Notes: generated from the sequence alone by a model not told the origin. A DNA stretch of 35,535 nucleotides from Candidatus Aciduliprofundum sp. (GCA_015520565.1 WAPW01000055.1:1-35535), one strand, 5' to 3'. Shown: positions 16,906 through 35,535, counted from the stretch's first letter. Numbers and translations: made by a program.

Positions 16906-16936
16906 TGTTCAAATACTCTTTATCTAGGTGGTTGCC

Positions 16937-19900
16937 ATGGAGTTGAGGGCTCTTGGAAATGCTGTTAGTAAGAGGCCTGTAACAACGCTCATTATCGTCC
17001 TAGTAATAACATCAGTATTTGGCATTTATACTGCTCAGATGCAAATGAATGCTGATCTCAAAAGCTTCCTTCCCAACGATGAGATGGTTAATGCTGAGAT
17101 GAAGGTAAATGAGAATTTTGGAGATACGGATGTGGTGCAGATAATATTTGTATCCAATAACACTGTTTCAAAATCATCGCTCATGGATATGCTTACGGTG
17201 GAAGGGAATATTGTAAATAATAGTCATATACTTCAAAATTTAAGAACTCCTGATAATCCAAGCGAAAGCATACTCTCCCCGGCAGATATAATAGTTATGG
17301 GTAATATAACTTTAAGTTTTGAAAATGAGCTTACTAAACTATTAAGGAATATGACAAATGAGATGAAAGGGCTCAATTTTACAGTGGCTGTGGTTCCAAT
17401 TAAGATGATGAGCTCGGTTATCTACGATTATAAAGATATATATCAAAATGCCACTGACATTAGGGATGACGCTAAAGATATAGTTCTCCTTCTATTTAAT
17501 AAACCATCATCATCAAATGGTACCGCCTTAGAGGAAATTGAGCCATTGCTTCAAAATATAACTTATGTTCTTACAAATTCTAACGATTTTAGCATAAAAT
17601 CAAAGGTTCTCACAATACTTACCCCCCCAATGGAAGAGTCCCAAGGAAATTCAAGCATGAGCAATCCTCTTTTCAAATACTTTGTCAATGATATTCTATC
17701 CTCTATGAATTTGGAAAATAAGAGTATATCTGTGCATTATTTCTCCCTCACCAATAACTTTACGGAAAGCTCCTTGGATTATTCTCTATCCTCAATAAAT
17801 TCTGCCATAACCGGAAACTCTCAGCTTATAAATGCATTGAATATGGTAAAGGGTAGTATATTGAGGGGAGATAATTCTACAGCACTTTATATTTTAAACA
17901 GGACAATTGAAGGTGTATCTTCAAAGCTTAGTCAGATGTCCATGGCTTTGCCTTATTATCAATCATTTAACAGCTCCCTCTCTAAATTCTTATACGATTT
18001 CAAAACAGGTAATTTGGCTCCTCAAGACATTGTAAGTTTGCAAGAGAACTTATCAAACATGCTCGCCATATCCTCTGGAAACTTTAAGAATATGCTTCAA
18101 ATATTTGATGACACTTTTGAGGAATGGCTCCATTCAAATCACATATTCTATGATGTTATATACGAGGCAAACTCAACCCTTCCAGCAGTTCAGGGATTCT
18201 TGCAAAATTATAAAGGAATGGTAATGCTTAACAATACCCTTCTTGGTATAAAGATGGAGATAAATTATGATTCGGTGGAAAATACTACAATGCATATAGA
18301 GTACCTCACAGGATATTTGAACAATGCAAATGAAGAGTTAAACAACAAGAAGGCATTTATTGAGAGCGCTATGAATGCACTAAATACTCCGTACTTCCAT
18401 TGGTATTCTACTATGTTAATGGATTTAGATTATATTCTCCATCATTCAAATGTGGGAGAATATGCCATGAACATATTTACCTTCGTGCTTCGCATGATGA
18501 ATAATGGAGGTAATATAGGAAACGGCAGTGGGAGCTTTACCATATTTTACTCTCTAAAGCATGCCTTTGATTCTAATGTTGCTCCTAAATACAAAGAAGA
18601 GATACAGAATATGTACCTTACAATAATGGGTCTAATGAAAATGAGTACCGAGTTTAATGGAGGGATGCCTTCAATGCCCTCCCAGCCTAGCTTTGAACTA
18701 CCTAACTTTAATCCATCGGTATCGGAGAAGAAGCAAGTTTTGGAAAATATGAGTTATGGGGATATAATCAACACTATGTCAGATATTAAAAATTACAATC
18801 CTACCGATTTTACGAATACAATAAATTCAACCATACCTGTTATTAAAAATGCTAGTGCAAATCTCAGTGCTTTTAATGCCGAGATTGAAAATTTAGTTAG
18901 GGGAATGAGCTTTGTTTATGCTACCACAGGAGATTCAAATGTAAGCGATATGATGAGCATGTATACCAAGATAAATGAGAATATAACAGTTGCTAGGGAT
19001 GCTTTGGATATGATGGCAAATCGGCTTCCTCAGATGAGTGGATTTACCTATATGATGAAACAGTTCTCTGGAGAGCTCAATGTTATGTTTTCTAAGGATT
19101 TTAATGGTAGAAGTGCAAAGGCAGCTATGATGTTTGTAATGCTCAATAATACCAATTTGCCGGGAGAGACAGATAACCAGCATAATTTGAGAATGGAATC
19201 CCTTGAAGAAGAGGTTGGAAATATTGCCAAGGAATCTCATGTTAAGAGCAAGATAATGGTTATGGGAAGTTATTTAGTCACAGAGGCAAGTACGAAGACA
19301 TCCAACGAGGCATTTAATGTTCTCATACCCATAGCTATAATTCTAATTATAGTAATTCTCTTGGTTACTGTTAGAAGTGCATTGGACATGGCTTTAGGAG
19401 TTGTAGGATTGGGTATGGCTATAGCGTGGGCTTATGGCTTTGGAGTTATGATGGGATACACATTTAACCAGATAAGTACCACAGTTGCAGTGCTTCTAAT
19501 TGGCTTGGGCATAGATTATTCAATTCATACCACCCTTCGTTATAGAGAGGAGCTTAGGAAGGGTAAAACAGTTAGAAAGGCAATGAACGATATGATAACT
19601 CATCTTGGTATGGCACTTATACTATCTACGCTAACCACAATAATCGCATTCTTGTCAAATGTATCTTCGCCTGTGCCTCCAGTGGCTGATTTTGGAATAA
19701 TGAATGCAGTTGGAATATTTGGAGCGTTTATAATATTTACAACTGGTATACCTGCAATAAAGATACTTATTGATGAGCACAGGGAGAAGAAAGGCAAGTT
19801 GAAGATAAAGAAGGAGAAAGGCAGAGAAGGTTCTGGCGTAGTTGCATTAAACAAGTTTATTGCAAGCAGTGGTACAATAGCAGAGCGTCATAGGGTTGCA

Positions 19901-21022
19901 GCCATAGTTGCAGTTGTAATTATAAGTGGAGTATCTTTATATGGGGGCATAAATGTAAGCACTAGCTTTGATTTAAAGGATTTCTTACCCCAGCATCTTG
20001 AAATAACCAATACCATCAATTTCATGATGGACAATTTCAACACATCTGGAATGAGTTATAACTATGTTCTCATAGAGGGAAATGTTACATCACCCCAAGC
20101 TTTAAAGGCAGTTAAAGAAACTATGGATAATATTAATGGCGATGAGTATGTTGATTACTCACAGGTATCAAGTATAACAACTTTAATCTCTGAGTGGAAA
20201 GAGAAGAACAGCACATTTGCTAAGATGGTAAAGGATAATGATACAAATGGTGATGGTTTGCCTGATAAGAATATTCAAGGCATATATAACTGGCTCTATG
20301 AGCATGCCCATGGTAATTCTGTATTGCACAAGAGCAATGGCACTTACGATTCTATGATAATCATAATCCCAAGCTCTGCAAGCAATGAGCATGAAAACAG
20401 AATATTGAGCAAGGAAATTAATGAGGATATTGTACCTCTAAAGAATGCAGGATTAAAGGTCATACCAACGGGTACAAATCTTCTCACATTCCACATATTG
20501 GATATGCTTGAAGGTAGTCAGTGGCGCTCTCTCTGGATTACAATAGTATCCTCCTTGGTTGTGCTCACAGTAGCATTCTGGTATGAAAAGAGAAGCTTGA
20601 TACTTGGACTCATCACATCAATTCCAGTGGTATTGGCTTTGCTTTGGCTCTTGGGAAGTATGTATGCCCTCGGAATAAGCTTCAATGCCATTACTGTTAC
20701 AATTACATCCCTTACCATAGGACTGGGTATTACATACGCGATACACATAACTCACAGGTTCTTGGAAGATTTAGAAACTGAGAAGACAATTGGAGATGCT
20801 GTAAGAAAAACTGCTAGACATACGGGTACATCTATATTTGGAGCAGCAGTGACTACGATGGCAGGATTTGGTACCCTTATGGTCTCTTCAATGCCACCTA
20901 TTCAACAATTCGGCGAGATAGCAACCCTATCAATAATCTATAGCTTTGTGCTCTCAGTGTTCATACTACCAGCATTCCTCTATATGTGGGCAACTTGGAG
21001 AGAGAAAAGAGGTAAGCATTAA
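16937..21022 (+). CDS. Giant RND/MMPL-family membrane protein with very large first outer domain
   Basis: 1361 residues. TM1 at about 13-31, then a ~760-residue outer domain rich in Asn/Ser/Thr and N-x-S/T sites. A 5-6 TM RND/sterol-sensing bundle follows at about 795-945 (VLLIGLGIDYSIHTTLRYREEL). The second half repeats this: TM near 985-1003, an outer loop of ~190 residues, then a TM bundle from ~1195 (ITSLTIGLGITYAIHITHRFLEDL). The second loop holds a calcium-loop-like DNDTNGDGLPDKN. This is the HAE3/MMPL type of exporter; cargo is unknown. ATG 16937 is preceded by AGGTGG; GTG 16928 overlaps that site. Confidence 0.85.
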   Translation: MELRALGNAVSKRPVTTLIIVLVITSVFGIYTAQMQMNADLKSFLPNDEMVNAEMKVNENFGDTDVVQIIFVSNNTVSKSSLMDMLTVEGNIVNNSHILQNLRTPDNPSESILSPADIIVMGNITLSFENELTKLLRNMTNEMKGLNFTVAVVPIKMMSSVIYDYKDIYQNATDIRDDAKDIVLLLFNKPSSSNGTALEEIEPLLQNITYVLTNSNDFSIKSKVLTILTPPMEESQGNSSMSNPLFKYFVNDILSSMNLENKSISVHYFSLTNNFTESSLDYSLSSINSAITGNSQLINALNMVKGSILRGDNSTALYILNRTIEGVSSKLSQMSMALPYYQSFNSSLSKFLYDFKTGNLAPQDIVSLQENLSNMLAISSGNFKNMLQIFDDTFEEWLHSNHIFYDVIYEANSTLPAVQGFLQNYKGMVMLNNTLLGIKMEINYDSVENTTMHIEYLTGYLNNANEELNNKKAFIESAMNALNTPYFHWYSTMLMDLDYILHHSNVGEYAMNIFTFVLRMMNNGGNIGNGSGSFTIFYSLKHAFDSNVAPKYKEEIQNMYLTIMGLMKMSTEFNGGMPSMPSQPSFELPNFNPSVSEKKQVLENMSYGDIINTMSDIKNYNPTDFTNTINSTIPVIKNASANLSAFNAEIENLVRGMSFVYATTGDSNVSDMMSMYTKINENITVARDALDMMANRLPQMSGFTYMMKQFSGELNVMFSKDFNGRSAKAAMMFVMLNNTNLPGETDNQHNLRMESLEEEVGNIAKESHVKSKIMVMGSYLVTEASTKTSNEAFNVLIPIAIILIIVILLVTVRSALDMALGVVGLGMAIAWAYGFGVMMGYTFNQISTTVAVLLIGLGIDYSIHTTLRYREELRKGKTVRKAMNDMITHLGMALILSTLTTIIAFLSNVSSPVPPVADFGIMNAVGIFGAFIIFTTGIPAIKILIDEHREKKGKLKIKKEKGREGSGVVALNKFIASSGTIAERHRVAAIVAVVIISGVSLYGGINVSTSFDLKDFLPQHLEITNTINFMMDNFNTSGMSYNYVLIEGNVTSPQALKAVKETMDNINGDEYVDYSQVSSITTLISEWKEKNSTFAKMVKDNDTNGDGLPDKNIQGIYNWLYEHAHGNSVLHKSNGTYDSMIIIIPSSASNEHENRILSKEINEDIVPLKNAGLKVIPTGTNLLTFHILDMLEGSQWRSLWITIVSSLVVLTVAFWYEKRSLILGLITSIPVVLALLWLLGSMYALGISFNAITVTITSLTIGLGITYAIHITHRFLEDLETEKTIGDAVRKTARHTGTSIFGAAVTTMAGFGTLMVSSMPPIQQFGEIATLSIIYSFVLSVFILPAFLYMWATWREKRGKH

Positions 21023-21102: not shown

Positions 21103-21375
21103 ATGGCAGAAGAAAACGTTGTATTCGTAGGAAAGAAGCCAACAATGAACTATGTACTTGCTGTTGTGACACAGTTTAACAGTGGCGTGAACACGGTTGT
21201 TTTGAAGGCAAGAGGAAAGGCCATAAGTAAGGCCGTTGATGTTGCAGAAATTGTACGCAACCGCTTTGTACCAAGCTTGCAGTATGGAGAAATAAAGATA
21301 GGCACCGAGAGCTTGCAGAGTGAGAAAGGAGAAACAAATGTCTCTTCCATTGAAATAGAGATGAAGAGGGAGTAA
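21103..21375 (+). CDS. albA: Alba chromatin protein
   Basis: 90 residues. Diagnostic start [20 protein letters not shown], with K11/K12 at the DNA-contacting, acetylatable lysine position, then [24 protein letters not shown] and a basic C-terminal strand. Alba coats DNA and RNA as a dimer. The gene is monocistronic, with its own TATA box and a strong GGAGGCGAT ribosome site. It converges on the large surface-protein gene across an 18-nt gap containing T-tracts. Confidence 0.96.
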
Positions 21376-21393: not shown

Positions 21394-24300
21394 TTATTGT
21401 TTATTCTTTCTTCTTCTTAAAACTGCTATTATTGCAAGCAATGGAACTATAAGGATTGCAAAATCGTGGAACTCTGGGATTTTATCAAAATATATGTCGT
21501 AATTTCCATTTCTATCATCTGTCCAAACCACATAAACATTGTTATTATCTATGTATGCAGCCACTGTTCCGTATACTGCAACTCCTGAGCCTTGATCACT
21601 TACAGTTTCCACAGAATTCCAATCATTTCCTGCATCAGTAGATTCTCTCATACATACGTAGCCTGTGGTAGCGTCTAAGTAAAATACATAGACATCAGAA
21701 CCATTGGCCACTACCCATGGGAGAGTTTCATTATTATATGATGTACCTCCATCTATAATATCTCCAGTTCCATTTACCCATATTACATCACTCCATGTAT
21801 TTCCGTTGTCTGTTGAAACTATAAGTCCTACATCCCAGTTAGAGTATCTTAGATTATTACTGGAAGCTATTATATACAAAGCACTAAACGCCACATATAT
21901 ATAATTCTCAGATGTATAAATGGATGGAAAGGTATACACATAGTATCCATAATAATAAAATAATAAGTAATTCAATTGTCCATATATTATTATCCCAGAC
22001 CATTTTGTGGAATTTATGCCCGTGTTATTGGCTATTACTATCCCTCTATTATAATCTTCATAGAATGTAATAAATACCTTAGGAGTACTGCCTGTAGAAA
22101 TGGCAACCTTTGGAAACTCTTCTATATAAGATGAGTTAGCAAAATTATAGTAATTATAGAGATACTCATTGTTGATTATTTTTATCAAGCCAACATTAAC
22201 ATCAGAGCTACCATTCAAATAGTCGTATGCTACATAAACATAAGTATTTCCTGAAGAGTCTGTGTATGTTTCTGCAGATATGTCAACAGTGTTTTTCCAA
22301 CTCAAAGTTGTCAAAAATTCTGTTAAATTATTAGTATGGGTATCGTAAATAAAATAGGCAAATTTTGAACCCGAAGTAAAGTTATCAAAGAATATGTAAA
22401 GGTTATCTTGTGAATCTTTTGTTATGACTGGATAGGAGTCATTCTTGGTGTAAGGTATATAGTATAAGTTCCAAGTTTGACCCCCATCGGTAGAATTGGC
22501 AACCCGAATATATCCAGTTGAGCTATTGTAGGCCACCCATAAAGTGCCATCAGAGGTTTTTACTATGGAAGGATATGCTTCATCTGTTTGTTGAGTTGAG
22601 GTTGTAACTAGAATATCATTACCGAACAACGCGGCTTTTAACGATTTTGCATTTAATTTCCCTATATATTTCAAGTTAGGATGACTTATAGAAACGGTTT
22701 TAGCGATATCATAATTCTCTAAACTTATTGATAGATTTTTTTGCATCGTTTGTTTATCTTCTTTAATTTTTTGCTCCAGAGGCACATCTGCGACATCTTT
22801 ATCGTTGCGCCAGTCAAATATGAATATGTATTCCTTGCTATTCTTCGTTTCCACTCCTGTGTTGAATTCCATAGAATGGTATCCAAGCTTTGGCGAGAGG
22901 TGTTTTACGAATATCCATTTGCTGTTGGAGTAATTGTAAAGAGAAGCATTATAAACCTTCCCTTCCTTTCCAAACATCTCTATCTTGTAATCTGCTCCTA
23001 TTGGGTATTTTGGCAAAGAATAGCCGGTATGGGTATTATTGTCTGAATTTATGTAAATCTCAATTGTATCCATCCCCTCTACAACCTTGTGGGGCACTGG
23101 ACCAATATAGCGATGCACTTGGCGCCCAGCGTAGGGCTTTGGGAACCATGAGGGTATGGTAGTATTGAGCCACATATCTGGCCCGTAGGGATAATCAGGT
23201 ATGCCATCTTTATCCACATCTGGCAATTTTGTTCCATTTACAACCACATAGCTCTCGTTATCAGGTATGCCATCGTTGTTGAAATCATGAGGGTAAGGAT
23301 CATACTTGTCAGGTACGGTGTCTCCATCGCTATCTGGTAGATGAAATACTTCAATTTTTGGCACATCTGTCCCACCAAGCATCTTGCCCCGAACTTTTAA
23401 GAACATGTAAAGGTACTGAGCATTATAAGCTCCATATTGCAATAGATCTATGTTTGGATAGCCATTTACTATTTTTCCATCTGGAGCTATGACATCATTA
23501 GAAGAATCGTTTTGCAAATAATTATCCCAATCAGCAAAGGCACCATCAATAATGGGATGCTTTGGAATTTTAGAAATATAAGAAGCGCTAAGGATTTCGT
23601 TATTCACATAGTAAGGCATATTTACCTCCATAGAATCAATTTTGAGCATAAATGTCTTAGTTGCCAAAGATGAATTCGTTATTTTTACAGCTACGAAGAG
23701 TGTGGAGTTTGAATTAAAGTTAAGATTCAAATTTGAGAATTCTACCTTACCATTGCTGATTTTTGCAGTTGTTATATATTTATCTTGCGAATCAAAATAC
23801 TCATTTCCATTATCCTCGTATAATTCAATTGCATTTATGGATGAAGGGCCTGCATTGCCCATGGGCTCAAAAATCATTTTATGAATCCTAATATTTTTCC
23901 CAATTAAACTCATTTTTAGTATTGCACTTTTTTGATTTAGAGGTATTAAATTCTTTAATGAGCTTTCTTCTAGGATGAAATTATGTTTTCCATAATCTAT
24001 GCAAGGCACAATTGCTTGGATGCCCTTGTAGTTAGAGGATATAACAAAGCTTCTAAATCCATTTACCTGCAAATTTACAAATCCTTCAATTTGTCCATTT
24101 TTATCTATTGCTTTAATCCCTCCCACATATGTGAAATTGTTAAAATCAAGCTGGTTCGTGCCATTGAACTTGTATAATTCTTTTCCTTGCAAGGTTTTGT
24201 TCCATCCGTATAGCTCTACCATATAGTCGGCTCCAATTCCTTGCACTATGTACCCTGTGTGCGAATTGTTATCTGTATCCAAAAATAGATATATTCCGCT

Positions 24301-25137
24301 GGCATTTGTGAATAGATTCTTGTTTGCATTCAAGTAGAAGTATATGCCTTCCGTAGAGATATGGAATTTTGCAAAATTCACATTAATGCTCTTATCTTTG
24401 CTTTTCAATCCATAATATGGTATGTTTTGAACCCATTCTTGAAAATTACCATCAACTGCATAAACATAATGCTTCTCAAAGAATATCATCCCCATAAGCG
24501 GTGCTGCAATTATGAGAAAAACTATGAATACGGAGATCAGGACTTTCCAGCTCTTTGATGTTTTCCCTCTCCTTCCTCCTCCAGTGCCATTTACAATGCC
24601 CGTTCCATTAACAATACCATTTTTAAATCCATTCTTGAAACCATTTATATTTCCAAATCCATTTGAGAGCCCTACTTTCTTTGGTGGTATTACTGGCTGC
24701 GCTGCAAATTTCTTCTTCAATTTTACAGGGGGCTCTTCTCCTCTTTTAAGATAGAGCATATACGCCTTTTCGTAGGATTTCCTTGCATCCTTAAAGCTCC
24801 CCATCTTCTCAAGAATGTCCCCACGGATCTCCCACACAACAGGGGAATTTGGATATAATTTGGATAACCTTGTGTACTCTTCATACGCAGATTTCAAATC
24901 TTCCTCAGATGTAACTCTCCCCCATCTTTTTAGGAAATCATGGCCAACTCCATTTTTTGAATTTACCCCTTTTAAGAATTTTTGAAGCTTTTTTGCATCC
25001 TCAAGAGTGAGGGATGATATTGAGCTTATCTGTGAAGGTTCAGCATTAATAATATCATCTACGCTCTTGAAATTCGCCATTAAAGCATCAATATCCTCAC
25101 GATTTAATCCATACTCTTCCAATATATTCCTTAGCAC
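21394..25137 (-). CDS. Membrane-spanning surface protein: HhH/TPR-like inside, BNR/sialidase-like outside
   Basis: 1247 residues. About 1-55: helix-hairpin-helix-like (ILEEYGLNREDIDALMANF, ISSISSLTLEDAKKLQKFL). About 75-130: TPR-like (AYEEYTRLSKLYPNSPVVWE, RGDILEKMGSFKDARKSYEK). About 159-186: an NG-repeat linker (NGFKNGFKNGIVNGTG). About 195-219: a TM helix. Outside are two related domains beginning DGNFQEWVQN (~228) and DGAFADWDNY (~530), a D-x-D-x-DG calcium-loop stretch (DSDGDTVPDKYDPYPHDFNN, ~610), and BNR-like blades from ~845 (STDGGQTW, STDNGNTWSD, STDAGNDWNS). The C-terminus is a hydrophobic helix plus RRRKNKQ, like an archaeal surface anchor. GTG 25137 is at leaderless distance from TATA TTTATATAGG. 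Confidence 0.8.
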   Translation of the reverse strand: MLRNILEEYGLNREDIDALMANFKSVDDIINAEPSQISSISSLTLEDAKKLQKFLKGVNSKNGVGHDFLKRWGRVTSEEDLKSAYEEYTRLSKLYPNSPVVWEIRGDILEKMGSFKDARKSYEKAYMLYLKRGEEPPVKLKKKFAAQPVIPPKKVGLSNGFGNINGFKNGFKNGIVNGTGIVNGTGGGRRGKTSKSWKVLISVFIVFLIIAAPLMGMIFFEKHYVYAVDGNFQEWVQNIPYYGLKSKDKSINVNFAKFHISTEGIYFYLNANKNLFTNASGIYLFLDTDNNSHTGYIVQGIGADYMVELYGWNKTLQGKELYKFNGTNQLDFNNFTYVGGIKAIDKNGQIEGFVNLQVNGFRSFVISSNYKGIQAIVPCIDYGKHNFILEESSLKNLIPLNQKSAILKMSLIGKNIRIHKMIFEPMGNAGPSSINAIELYEDNGNEYFDSQDKYITTAKISNGKVEFSNLNLNFNSNSTLFVAVKITNSSLATKTFMLKIDSMEVNMPYYVNNEILSASYISKIPKHPIIDGAFADWDNYLQNDSSNDVIAPDGKIVNGYPNIDLLQYGAYNAQYLYMFLKVRGKMLGGTDVPKIEVFHLPDSDGDTVPDKYDPYPHDFNNDGIPDNESYVVVNGTKLPDVDKDGIPDYPYGPDMWLNTTIPSWFPKPYAGRQVHRYIGPVPHKVVEGMDTIEIYINSDNNTHTGYSLPKYPIGADYKIEMFGKEGKVYNASLYNYSNSKWIFVKHLSPKLGYHSMEFNTGVETKNSKEYIFIFDWRNDKDVADVPLEQKIKEDKQTMQKNLSISLENYDIAKTVSISHPNLKYIGKLNAKSLKAALFGNDILVTTSTQQTDEAYPSIVKTSDGTLWVAYNSSTGYIRVANSTDGGQTWNLYYIPYTKNDSYPVITKDSQDNLYIFFDNFTSGSKFAYFIYDTHTNNLTEFLTTLSWKNTVDISAETYTDSSGNTYVYVAYDYLNGSSDVNVGLIKIINNEYLYNYYNFANSSYIEEFPKVAISTGSTPKVFITFYEDYNRGIVIANNTGINSTKWSGIIIYGQLNYLLFYYYGYYVYTFPSIYTSENYIYVAFSALYIIASSNNLRYSNWDVGLIVSTDNGNTWSDVIWVNGTGDIIDGGTSYNNETLPWVVANGSDVYVFYLDATTGYVCMRESTDAGNDWNSVETVSDQGSGVAVYGTVAAYIDNNNVYVVWTDDRNGNYDIYFDKIPEFHDFAILIVPLLAIIAVLRRRKNKQ

Positions 25138-25156: not shown

Positions 25157-25167
25157 CTATATAAATC
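25157..25167 (-). promoter_or_regulatory. TATA box of the 1247-residue surface protein
   Basis: Minus-strand TTTATATAGG is about 25 nt from the GTG start at 25137. Confidence 0.5.
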
Positions 25168-30362: not shown

Positions 30363-30398
30363 GGCCAATCATACGCACTCCTGTAGCATGGACTGGAA

Positions 30399-30404
<6 letters not shown>
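30363..30404 (-). other. 3' half of the pre-23S bulge-helix-bulge processing stem
   Basis: Minus-strand 30381-30363 is perfectly complementary over 19 bp to 33369-33351. Minus-strand 30404-30390 pairs over 15 bp (one G-U) with 33342-33328. Between them ATGC can pair with GCAT of the other half, leaving 3-nt bulges TAC and AAT. Confidence 0.85.
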
Positions 30405-33327
<2,923 letters not shown>

Positions 33328-33335
<8 letters not shown>

Positions 33336-33369
33336 CCAGTCCATTATGCCGGAGTGCGTATGATTGGCC
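33328..33369 (-). other. 5' half of the pre-23S bulge-helix-bulge processing stem
   Basis: Minus strand reads GGCCAATCATACGCACTCC (33369-33351), G, GCAT, bulge AAT, then GGACTGGAAGGTAGC (33342-33328), pairing with 30363-30404. Confidence 0.85.
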
Positions 33370-33398
33370 TCATCGATCGTGAGATCTAAGCCCTTCCC

Positions 33399-33415
33399 CG
33401 ATAACCGTGTTATCG
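33399..33415 (-). other. Hairpin in the pre-23S leader
   Basis: CGATAAC-CGT-GTTATCG is a perfect 7-bp stem with a 3-nt loop, 30 nt upstream of the processing stem. Its role is unknown; it may guide folding or processing of the leader. Confidence 0.5.
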
Positions 33416-33518
33416 AGTGCATTCATTAAAAGCGCAAGGAGATGTATAGTGAACTTGTATTTAAGGCTAACGCCTACTAATTTTTCAACTTATAATTTGA
33501 TAAAATAATAGGTAAGTA

Positions 33519-33581: not shown

Positions 33582-35535
33582 ATGAGAAAAACGAAAATCT
33601 TTATGAGTATTTTGGTTATGGTGTTAATTTTAATGGGTGGAATGGGATATCTGGTTTCAAGTAGTGGAGCTTCAAATTCTCACTCTACCCGCACTAATTT
33701 AAGTTCCTGTGGTGCTATATTACCTCAAAGCTCCTCTATTCAGAGCACTGGAAATACAATATACATTAATGGAACTTTTGTTATAAATAGGACTACTATG
33801 GACCCATCCACGGGAGAAAGGGGGAGGTATGGTTTTGATGCAAATGTTGTTGTAACATCAACTGGAAAGTTGATTGTTGAGAATGCCACACTCTATTTTC
33901 TATCTGATGTTGATCATAGGTACTCTTTAACTGTGGAAGGTGGCTTGTATTTCTATAATGTAACTTTTACAATATCTCATGGGCTTATAAAGCCATACTA
34001 TCCATTCAATTTTATTATAAAGGGTCCGAGTTATTCAAAGGTTGAAATTATAAATAGCAAATTGCTCTATCCCGGTTGGTTTAATGTTACAAATAAATAT
34101 GGAAATGTAATAATTAGAAACACAATATTTGGTAAGATGGTGAAAAAACCCTCTGATTATCCTGCCCCTCCAAGTTATGGACCTACACCTTATTTTTACA
34201 ATTCAAAAGTATATATTATGGCTACAAAGTTTACGGATATATTCACCAATAAGAGTGGCGGTAATGGACTAATAGGATGGGCTAACGATACATCTAGCTA
34301 TACAGTATCTCAGAATTCAGGTGCAACCATAGACCATTTTGATAAGAACGCCTATTCCAAGTATTCTGATTTTTGGAGTTATGCTATCCTTAAAAACATT
34401 GAGGTAGACGTGAAGTATACAAATTCTTCTGGGTATAATCCATCATCATCCAAGATTATAATGACATATGGTTCTAAGCAACTTTTAAACATGTCTTTTC
34501 CCGGGGTGAAAAATAACAATGGACTATTGAAAGGAAGTGTGTTCTTCTATCCTTATAACCTTACTCCAAACCAATTCTACCAGAAGCTTTCAAATGGAGC
34601 TATAAAAGTTTATGTTACTAACACTACAAACGGAACAGTTAGCATTTTGGGAGTGTATATAAAAATAGAAGTGGAAAACAATTTGTTAAAATATGGTATT
34701 AATAAATTCTCTTTTAATGTAGTTGAGTCCAAGCTCTATATGAGAGATGTTTATGTGGATGTGGATTATCTCCCTAGGAGTGATTTGGGAACATTACATC
34801 ATGTGATTTATGTGGACAGGGATTCAAAGATATATGCGTTGAATTTAACGATTAACGATACAGGTAAGAGTCCAAGGTATGATAGTTCTTTCTTGATTAA
34901 AGACACGAGCTCTCAAGTTTATATTTTAAGGTATGCACATGTGAGTGTGCATTTTCGCAGTGTGCCTATAAATGGCTTAAAAGTTAAGGCAAAGCCAACT
35001 CCAGTGGATTCAAATAGTAATTCTGAAATTACTTCTCAAATTATTGAGGCAATATATAACTATGTACAATACACTCGCCTTATTCCGGGTATGAAATTAG
35101 GCAATGTTCAGGTATCCAATGGTTATGTGTATGATACAACTGTTAACGGGAATGTAACCTTACCTTTGCTTTCTGACATAATAAATGCTAGTGAAATGCC
35201 AAATAGCAAGTATGTAGGTATCTATGGTATTTCTGTGGAGAATAGTACTAAGGTATTTTCAACGCTTCAAATAGGACTCAGTTACTATCCCTGGCTATTG
35301 CCTGCCAACAACACTTTGAATGTTAATGTTGTTCTTTCCAAATACAAGGATGTGGACTTAAAGATTAATTACATAAATTTAGGTGAGCAGCCATATGTAC
35401 CGGGTAGGAACATAAGTGTAGAGACGGAGGTTGAGAACATAGGGAATGATGTAGCTGAGGGAGTAGAGTTATATGTGTATGTAAATGGGCAGTTATACAA
35501 AGTATACGATATAGGGAACATAGGAGGAAATAGCA
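33582..35535 (+). CDS. Secreted surface protein with CARDB-like domain (cut by right edge)
   Basis: Open for 651 codons from ATG 33582 to the window end. N-terminal signal-type helix at about 5-26 (ILVMVLILMGGMGYL), no lipobox Cys. The body is Asn/Ser/Thr/Tyr-rich with many N-x-S/T sites and beta-strand-like repeats (TGKLIVENATLYFLSDVDHR, EGGLYFYNVTFTI), as in archaeal surface parallel-beta proteins. From about 585 a CARDB-like domain begins (DLKINYINLG, ISVETEVENIGNDVAEGVEL), a fold used as an extracellular adhesion spacer. A strong GGGAGGTG sits 6 nt upstream of the start. Function unknown. Confidence 0.8.
   Translation, partial: MRKTKIFMSILVMVLILMGGMGYLVSSSGASNSHSTRTNLSSCGAILPQSSSIQSTGNTIYINGTFVINRTTMDPSTGERGRYGFDANVVVTSTGKLIVENATLYFLSDVDHRYSLTVEGGLYFYNVTFTISHGLIKPYYPFNFIIKGPSYSKVEIINSKLLYPGWFNVTNKYGNVIIRNTIFGKMVKKPSDYPAPPSYGPTPYFYNSKVYIMATKFTDIFTNKSGGNGLIGWANDTSSYTVSQNSGATIDHFDKNAYSKYSDFWSYAILKNIEVDVKYTNSSGYNPSSSKIIMTYGSKQLLNMSFPGVKNNNGLLKGSVFFYPYNLTPNQFYQKLSNGAIKVYVTNTTNGTVSILGVYIKIEVENNLLKYGINKFSFNVVESKLYMRDVYVDVDYLPRSDLGTLHHVIYVDRDSKIYALNLTINDTGKSPRYDSSFLIKDTSSQVYILRYAHVSVHFRSVPINGLKVKAKPTPVDSNSNSEITSQIIEAIYNYVQYTRLIPGMKLGNVQVSNGYVYDTTVNGNVTLPLLSDIINASEMPNSKYVGIYGISVENSTKVFSTLQIGLSYYPWLLPANNTLNVNVVLSKYKDVDLKINYINLGEQPYVPGRNISVETEVENIGNDVAEGVELYVYVNGQLYKVYDIGNIGGNS

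Follow-up and report, generated by a model that had tools for sequence, protein, structure and literature searches.

The locus examined here raises the question of what a single archaeal chain does with a helix-hairpin-helix (HhH) domain and a TPR-like unit in the cytoplasm and a beta-propeller on the cell surface. The gene lies in a window, by which is meant the whole stretch of 35,535 nucleotides analysed, from Candidatus Aciduliprofundum sp. (GCA_015520565.1 WAPW01000055.1), and its features are collected in Table 1. A preliminary description had listed HhH-like and TPR-like modules, an Asn-Gly (NG) repeat linker, a transmembrane (TM) segment, two related beta domains, a calcium-loop segment, BNR-like blades and a C-terminal anchor, called this order unusual, and suggested a transmembrane connector or sensor. 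The open reading frame, structural models, profiles and topology agree that cytosolic HhH and TPR parts are joined to a surface propeller in one chain. The order is present as described, but it is a recurrent theme across the class and not a one-off fusion; a separate beta region and a calcium-loop split of the second beta domain are additions to the list. Domain order, homology, topology signals, the sorting signal with its sortase, tip exchange and family spread were all computed. The explanation to which we give about an even chance is that of a protein for recognition or adhesion whose tip can be exchanged and whose inner end is held by a protein-binding adaptor.

Table 1. Features of the 1247-residue protein gene, in window coordinates.
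Feature	Position	Strand	Basis or remark
Whole gene, 1247 aa	21394..25137	-	GTG start at 25137; syntenic orthologues
TATA-like box TTTATATAG	25157..25165	-	about 24 nt 5' of GTG; read from sequence
Degenerate (HhH)2 domain, residues 1-60	24958..25137	-	AF2 model, profile comparisons
DFLKRW motif and TPR unit, residues 64-145	24703..24948	-	profile matches, AF2, conservation
Asn-Gly-rich linker, then basic stretch, residues 156-196	24550..24672	-	composition, shuffles
Transmembrane helix, single, N-in, residues 200-218	24484..24540	-	flank charge
IDG..W domain copy 1, residues 228-380	23998..24456	-	profile, signature
Separate beta region, residues 387-521	23575..23979	-	one of two fast-changing outer segments
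IDG..W domain copy 2, insert-split, residues 530-786	22780..23550	-	profile
DxDxDG calcium-loop-type insert, residues 601-650	23188..23337	-	motif
BNR-type beta-propeller, residues 835-1215	21493..22635	-	fold search, three Asp-boxes; exchanged between lineages
PEF-CTERM sorting signal, residues 1220-1244	21406..21480	-	TIGR03024, 32 bits, cut-off 23

The source genome is archaeal and spans 1.51 Mb (completeness 99.6%, contamination 4%), and the gene is its single member of the IDG..W domain family. Synteny is kept in 12 other genomes of the same family (f1), and genomes of genus g2 retain the syntenic orthologue together with several paralogues. An assembly artefact is ruled out, as the same gene with the same neighbours occurs in the one-contig genomes G002 and G003 and in ten more; G003, from the same genus as the window, is a single contig of 1,486,778 bases. 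Wherever an f1 locus has sufficient flank, a convergent MMPL-alba pair lies on one side and a divergent CPxCG zinc-finger gene on the other, an arrangement from which the gene is probably transcribed alone. Beyond the CPxCG gene, the window and the longer f1 loci carry a transglutaminase-like gene and then a Trm5-type gene. The TATA-like box TTTATATAG suggests a leaderless mRNA that would have the GTG at its start. A scan of codons 141-214 returned no start codon, and a shorter product with a cleaved signal, which the preliminary description had named as an outcome that would count against it, is ruled out by the absence of a start across residues 140-215 and the conservation of the cytosolic part.

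Several other features of the window deserve mention. The chromatin gene alba (21103-21375, + strand) ends 18 bp from the stop codon of the gene; the convergent pair is present wherever an f1 locus reaches alba, and the two overlap in several of these loci. Near alba throughout f1 lies an MMPL/Patched-like transporter of 1364 residues with big extracytoplasmic parts (16928-21022, + strand). An archaeal 23S rRNA gene occupies 30394-33338 on the minus strand, so the open reading frames called within it (30878-33422) are spurious. Cut by the contig edge, a large protein whose 5' part occupies 33582-35534 (+ strand) matches CARDB weakly and is possibly another surface protein.

The N-terminal domain models as HhH when structure prediction and profile searching, the checks proposed with the preliminary description, are applied, so the other outcome named there as refuting, an N-terminus that is not HhH, did not arise. 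AF2 modelling with 12 orthologues gives helices at residues 2-9, 13-22, 26-31, 34-40 and 45-59, with pLDDT mostly 81-94 and about 92 for the helices overall; these five form two helix-hairpin-helix units and a connector, the pattern of the (HhH)2 fold. Profile-profile comparison with canonical HhH domains, a set of six relatives elsewhere in the class and two family f5 proteins, gives a probability of 96.8% and an E-value of 2.4e-10; against the less diverse HhH set of close paralogues the probability was 36%. Pfam HHH_5 is marginal, with E 0.13 (13.2 bits) for the whole protein, which falls below the gathering cut-off of 27 bits, and E 0.001 (19.8 bits) for residues 1-66. Among the PDB chains that the orthologue profile matched were UvrC at E 0.001 and XPF at E 0.03, alongside some unrelated entries. 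When the N-terminal model was searched by fold, TPR structures dominated the hits, and HhH was absent from the top 50.

The same domain does not bear out the label "DNA-type". Both GhG hairpins are lost, PGVG aligning with YGLN and EGIG with SSLT in the window protein, and the net charge of residues 1-60 lies between 0 and -8 in each of the 11 orthologues, so that neither the GhG hairpins nor the basic surface of a DNA-binding HhH is found there. Several paralogues are more canonical and basic, with a net charge of +4 to +6 in five of seven HhH domains. Given this hairpin degradation and the neutral or acidic character of the domain throughout the orthologue set, protein binding is likelier than DNA binding for the inner HhH module. 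RadA and UvrC, the latter also among the PDB matches above, tolerate GhS or GhT hairpins, so the lost GhG motif still leaves some room for DNA binding, which is doubtful in this orthologue group.

These observations bear directly on whether the protein could be a tether from nucleoid to envelope, in which the inner HhH, joined in many relatives by zinc ribbons, would bind the chromosome and link it to the cell coat. The HhH domains found in paralogues and relatives have the canonical form, are often basic, match HHH_5 at E 1e-7 to 1e-15, and resemble the DNA-binding domains of RadA/Rad51, Hel308 and XPF. The cytosolic part of the window protein as a whole has a net charge of +5, and its linker +6. 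Set against this are the lost hairpin glycines and neutral to acidic HhH of the window orthologues, and an HhH score under the Pfam cut-off in 13 of 18 sampled relatives. The chromatin gene alba is the convergent neighbour in every f1 locus extending that far, yet it is not co-transcribed, and outside f1 none was seen beside the family. Tethering to DNA is weakened for the 1247-residue protein and may still apply to relatives with a canonical, basic HhH; as an account of this locus we consider it decidedly unlikely.

A different reading takes the HhH and TPR parts as a passive or decaying remnant, with function residing in the surface part alone. The HhH is indeed the cytosolic segment that varies most (23-45% identity beyond the closest pair), with its hairpins degraded, but all orthologues retain it almost without gaps, and the TPR adjoining it ranks with the most conserved regions. 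A passive or decaying remnant is highly improbable.

That adjoining unit appears TPR-like in structure, with one clear repeat and flanking helices, while its score in the 1247-residue protein stays under the Pfam cut-off (TPR_2, 19.8 bits against 27). Its helices reach residue 145 in the AF2 model (pLDDT about 83-91) before a disordered end, designed TPR proteins are matched at E 3e-5, and TPR exceeds the Pfam cut-off in several family members outside f1. No cytosolic part is better conserved than the DFLKRW-TPR segment (96% identity within the genus, 54-72% beyond), and DFLKRW, DFLERW, DFLSRW or DFIxKW followed by TPR recurs in relatives from other families; both observations speak for protein rather than DNA binding on the inside. 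An NCBIfam PrimPol match to residues 50-122 is taken as a chance match of TPR type.

The linker that follows has six NG dipeptides in 41 residues, against a maximum of five among 2000 shuffles, which upholds the earlier reading of an NG-repeat linker. Asn-Gly is the dipeptide with the greatest tendency to deamidate. Long NG repeats are nonetheless retained before the TM helix in relatives such as L120 and L180 and in the window protein, which comes from a relative of Aciduliprofundum, a heat-loving lineage. A long linker of this kind would suit a tether better than a stiff rod for signals. This matters for the sensor originally suggested, in which ligand binding by the propeller would alter the state of the cytosolic HhH and TPR. 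Inside and outside parts are coupled in one conserved chain and the TPR is strongly conserved, as a sensor would have it; a single helix and a long Asn-Gly linker, however, make a poor conduit for conformational change, the chain has no kinase, cyclase or transcription-factor domain, and no operon partner gene is obvious. A sensor is very unlikely on this balance.

The TM segment is a single helix, and since the 15 residues on its N-terminal side are more positive than the 15 on its C-terminal side in all 29 family members compared, its orientation is N-in. Glycosylation sequons number 27 in the ectodomain and zero in residues 1-155. The C-terminal anchor of the preliminary description proves to be a PEF-CTERM signal above cut-off, with the PEF motif, TM stretch and basic tail all present. 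Archaeosortase C is encoded in the same genome (G000:C62; TIGR03762, 335.7 bits, cut-off 100), and from the pairing of signal and sortase the C-terminus is probably cut and lipid-linked by this enzyme.

The outer stalk is built of two copies of one domain, recognised by the signature (I/V)DGxFx(D/E)W...D.D...TGY...G.GADYM.E..GW from residue 228. The profile finds copy 1 at E 1.7e-54 and copy 2 at E 1e-6 and 2e-15 around the insert, and BLAST aligns the two at E 5e-10, so the proposed duplication of D-G-x-F-x-(E/D)-W domains at 228 and 530 is sound, as is the calcium-loop segment, whose motifs lie in the insert. The DG..W starts stand about 280-325 residues apart, class-wide relatives included. 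Searched against Pfam and PDB sequences, the alignment of this domain, the commonest outer domain of the family, returned no match. Membership of CBM9 was rejected, CBM9_1 (PF06452) giving no match in the protein's own genome at E up to 10. The ectodomain model is of modest confidence, with a mean pLDDT of 61.5.

The C-terminal blades form a BNR-type propeller, as the preliminary description had anticipated. The model of about 380 C-terminal residues matches PLL/PHL lectins (Foldseek E about 1e-8, target-normalised TM about 0.7) and also sialidases; the fold is accompanied by its Asp-boxes, and Pfam BNR_2 scores 31.0 bits, marginally below its cut-off of 31.4. Reading residues 800-1220 by eye, no RIP motif of the kind expected of GH33 sialidases was seen, making sialidase activity of this propeller unlikely; its putative function is that of a lectin.

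Conservation along the chain is uneven. Between the window protein and its G003 orthologue, identity runs at 80-97% over the first 400 residues, drops to 55-60% at 401-520, returns to 82-97% at 521-800, falls to 25-65% at 801-1200 and is 78-100% over the final 47 residues. The core is 84% identical and the propeller 38%. The G003 propeller is 53-56% identical to those of other genera, above its 38% to the window, and a topology that unites the three propellers of the window's genus is rejected by the AU test (p-AU 0.006, with eight propellers on long branches). In g2 orthologues, at the same gene position, the C-terminal half from about residue 790 is unrelated, while the propeller of a g2 paralogue, L052, aligns with window residues 690-1246 at 39%. 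Taken together, the mismatch of propeller and core identity, the AU rejection and the g2 swap indicate that the propeller tip is a unit exchanged between lineages while the stalk beneath it stays fixed.

Of the 250 genomes of the class searched with the IDG..W domain alone, 96 gave a match, and the f3, f4 and f6 genomes, which belong to the same order, were absent from these. Twenty loci were sampled irrespective of HhH from the stronger matches of a profile seeded partly with HhH-bearing members, and the N-terminus was readable in 18. All 18 proteins have N-in topology, and 14 have an NG linker (at least four NG before the TM helix). HhH scores above the Pfam cut-off in five, zinc ribbons occur in nine and TPR in five; at least one of these cytosolic modules is present in 13, and the remaining 5 have the linker alone. 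Querying the 250 genomes with the HhH/zinc-ribbon N-terminus of a paralogue, a sample HhH-biased by design, recovered numerous large proteins that share the downstream parts. A fuller order of HhH, zinc ribbon(s), DFLxRW/TPR, NG linker, TM and IDG..W is seen in L047, L169, L185 and L188, and the window protein follows this plan without the zinc ribbons. Tandem cytosolic HhH units precede the NG linker, TM helix and IDG..W domain in the g2 paralogues L031, L032, L069, L070 and L072. Zinc-ribbon/HhH/TPR relatives with no detected TM helix (L096, L097, L100, L103 and L125-L127) are possible soluble partners of the membrane forms. The component parts are of known kinds, and there is a real chance that they make up a class-wide family deserving its own name; in the open-licence literature searched, no description of an HhH/TPR and surface-propeller combination was found.

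This spread invites a broader form of the connector idea, namely that, throughout the class, HhH, zinc-ribbon and TPR modules held on Asn-Gly tethers inside the cell bind the chromosome, or the machinery that serves it, and fix it to defined surface proteins. Such a family would amount to an archaeal linkage of nucleoid and envelope, a prospect we regard as very doubtful. The spread also bears on whether the protein is a structural, S-layer-like coat subunit whose cytosolic end merely anchors it and whose tip varies as a target of immunity or viruses. We know of no S-layer protein with a conserved cytosolic adaptor of 195 residues, and this speaks against a coat subunit. In its favour, the protein is large, sequon-rich and PEF-CTERM-bearing, and is encoded by a conserved single-copy syntenic gene. 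The missing matches in f3, f4 and f6 would also suit a coat subunit if these families fall within Thermoplasmatales, an order in which an S-layer is missing (PMC12448462). Overall, a coat subunit is unlikely.

The explanation we prefer, a recognition or adhesion protein with an inner adaptor, would work as follows. Residues 1-195 would lie in the cytoplasm, where a flexible Asn-Gly linker carries a degenerate HhH and the DFLxRW/TPR unit; a single helix would span the membrane N-in, leaving about 1000 residues outside. There, a stalk of two conserved IDG..W domains with calcium loops would bear the exchangeable, lectin-like propeller, and the PEF-CTERM end would probably be processed by archaeosortase C to a lipid anchor. 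Recognition or adhesion outside the cell is the likeliest job of the tip. The inner HhH/TPR may bind a protein partner in the cytosol, or a second copy of the same module, and in this way gather the surface protein into clusters, position it or report on its state. In the usual picture, archaeal surface proteins are outside-only; in this family a stalk with an exchangeable tip is connected to a conserved adaptor in the cytosol, offering a testable handle on how archaeal cells could arrange their coat from within and identifying a conserved gene whose recognition tip swaps between lineages.

Several parts of the chain have known counterparts from which they depart. The HhH shares its fold pattern and profile similarity with the (HhH)2 domains (Pfam HHH_5) of UvrC, XPF/ERCC1, RadA/Rad51 and Hel308, but sits on a membrane surface protein, with its hairpin glycines gone and an acidic character in the orthologue group. 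ComEA, the bacterial DNA-uptake receptor, likewise combines HhH with a single membrane anchor; its HhH lies outside the membrane, whereas that of the window protein is predicted inside. With PLL/PHL lectins and GH33 sialidases the tip has the propeller fold and Asp-boxes in common, although sequence identity is low and no RIP motif was seen by eye. Like substrates of the PEF-CTERM/archaeosortase C system (TIGR03024/TIGR03762), the protein has the C-terminal motif and a sortase in its genome, but its N-terminus is a 195-residue cytosolic HhH/TPR part with a signal-anchor helix instead of a cleaved signal peptide. VARTIG of Thermococcales is also a large archaeal surface protein with a conserved front and a recombination-driven variable C-terminal recognition domain (PMC8416519). 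Starting from Ig domains, its authors searched other archaea for analogues, and no module turned out to resemble it closely (PMC8416519). VARTIG has Ig domains and a variable operon, and HhH/TPR is not mentioned (PMC8416519), whereas the window gene is solitary, with fixed synteny, and the part of it that varies is a propeller or a different beta-rich end. Within the open-licence literature searched, VARTIG (PMC8416519) comes nearest, among published systems, to the tip exchange seen here.
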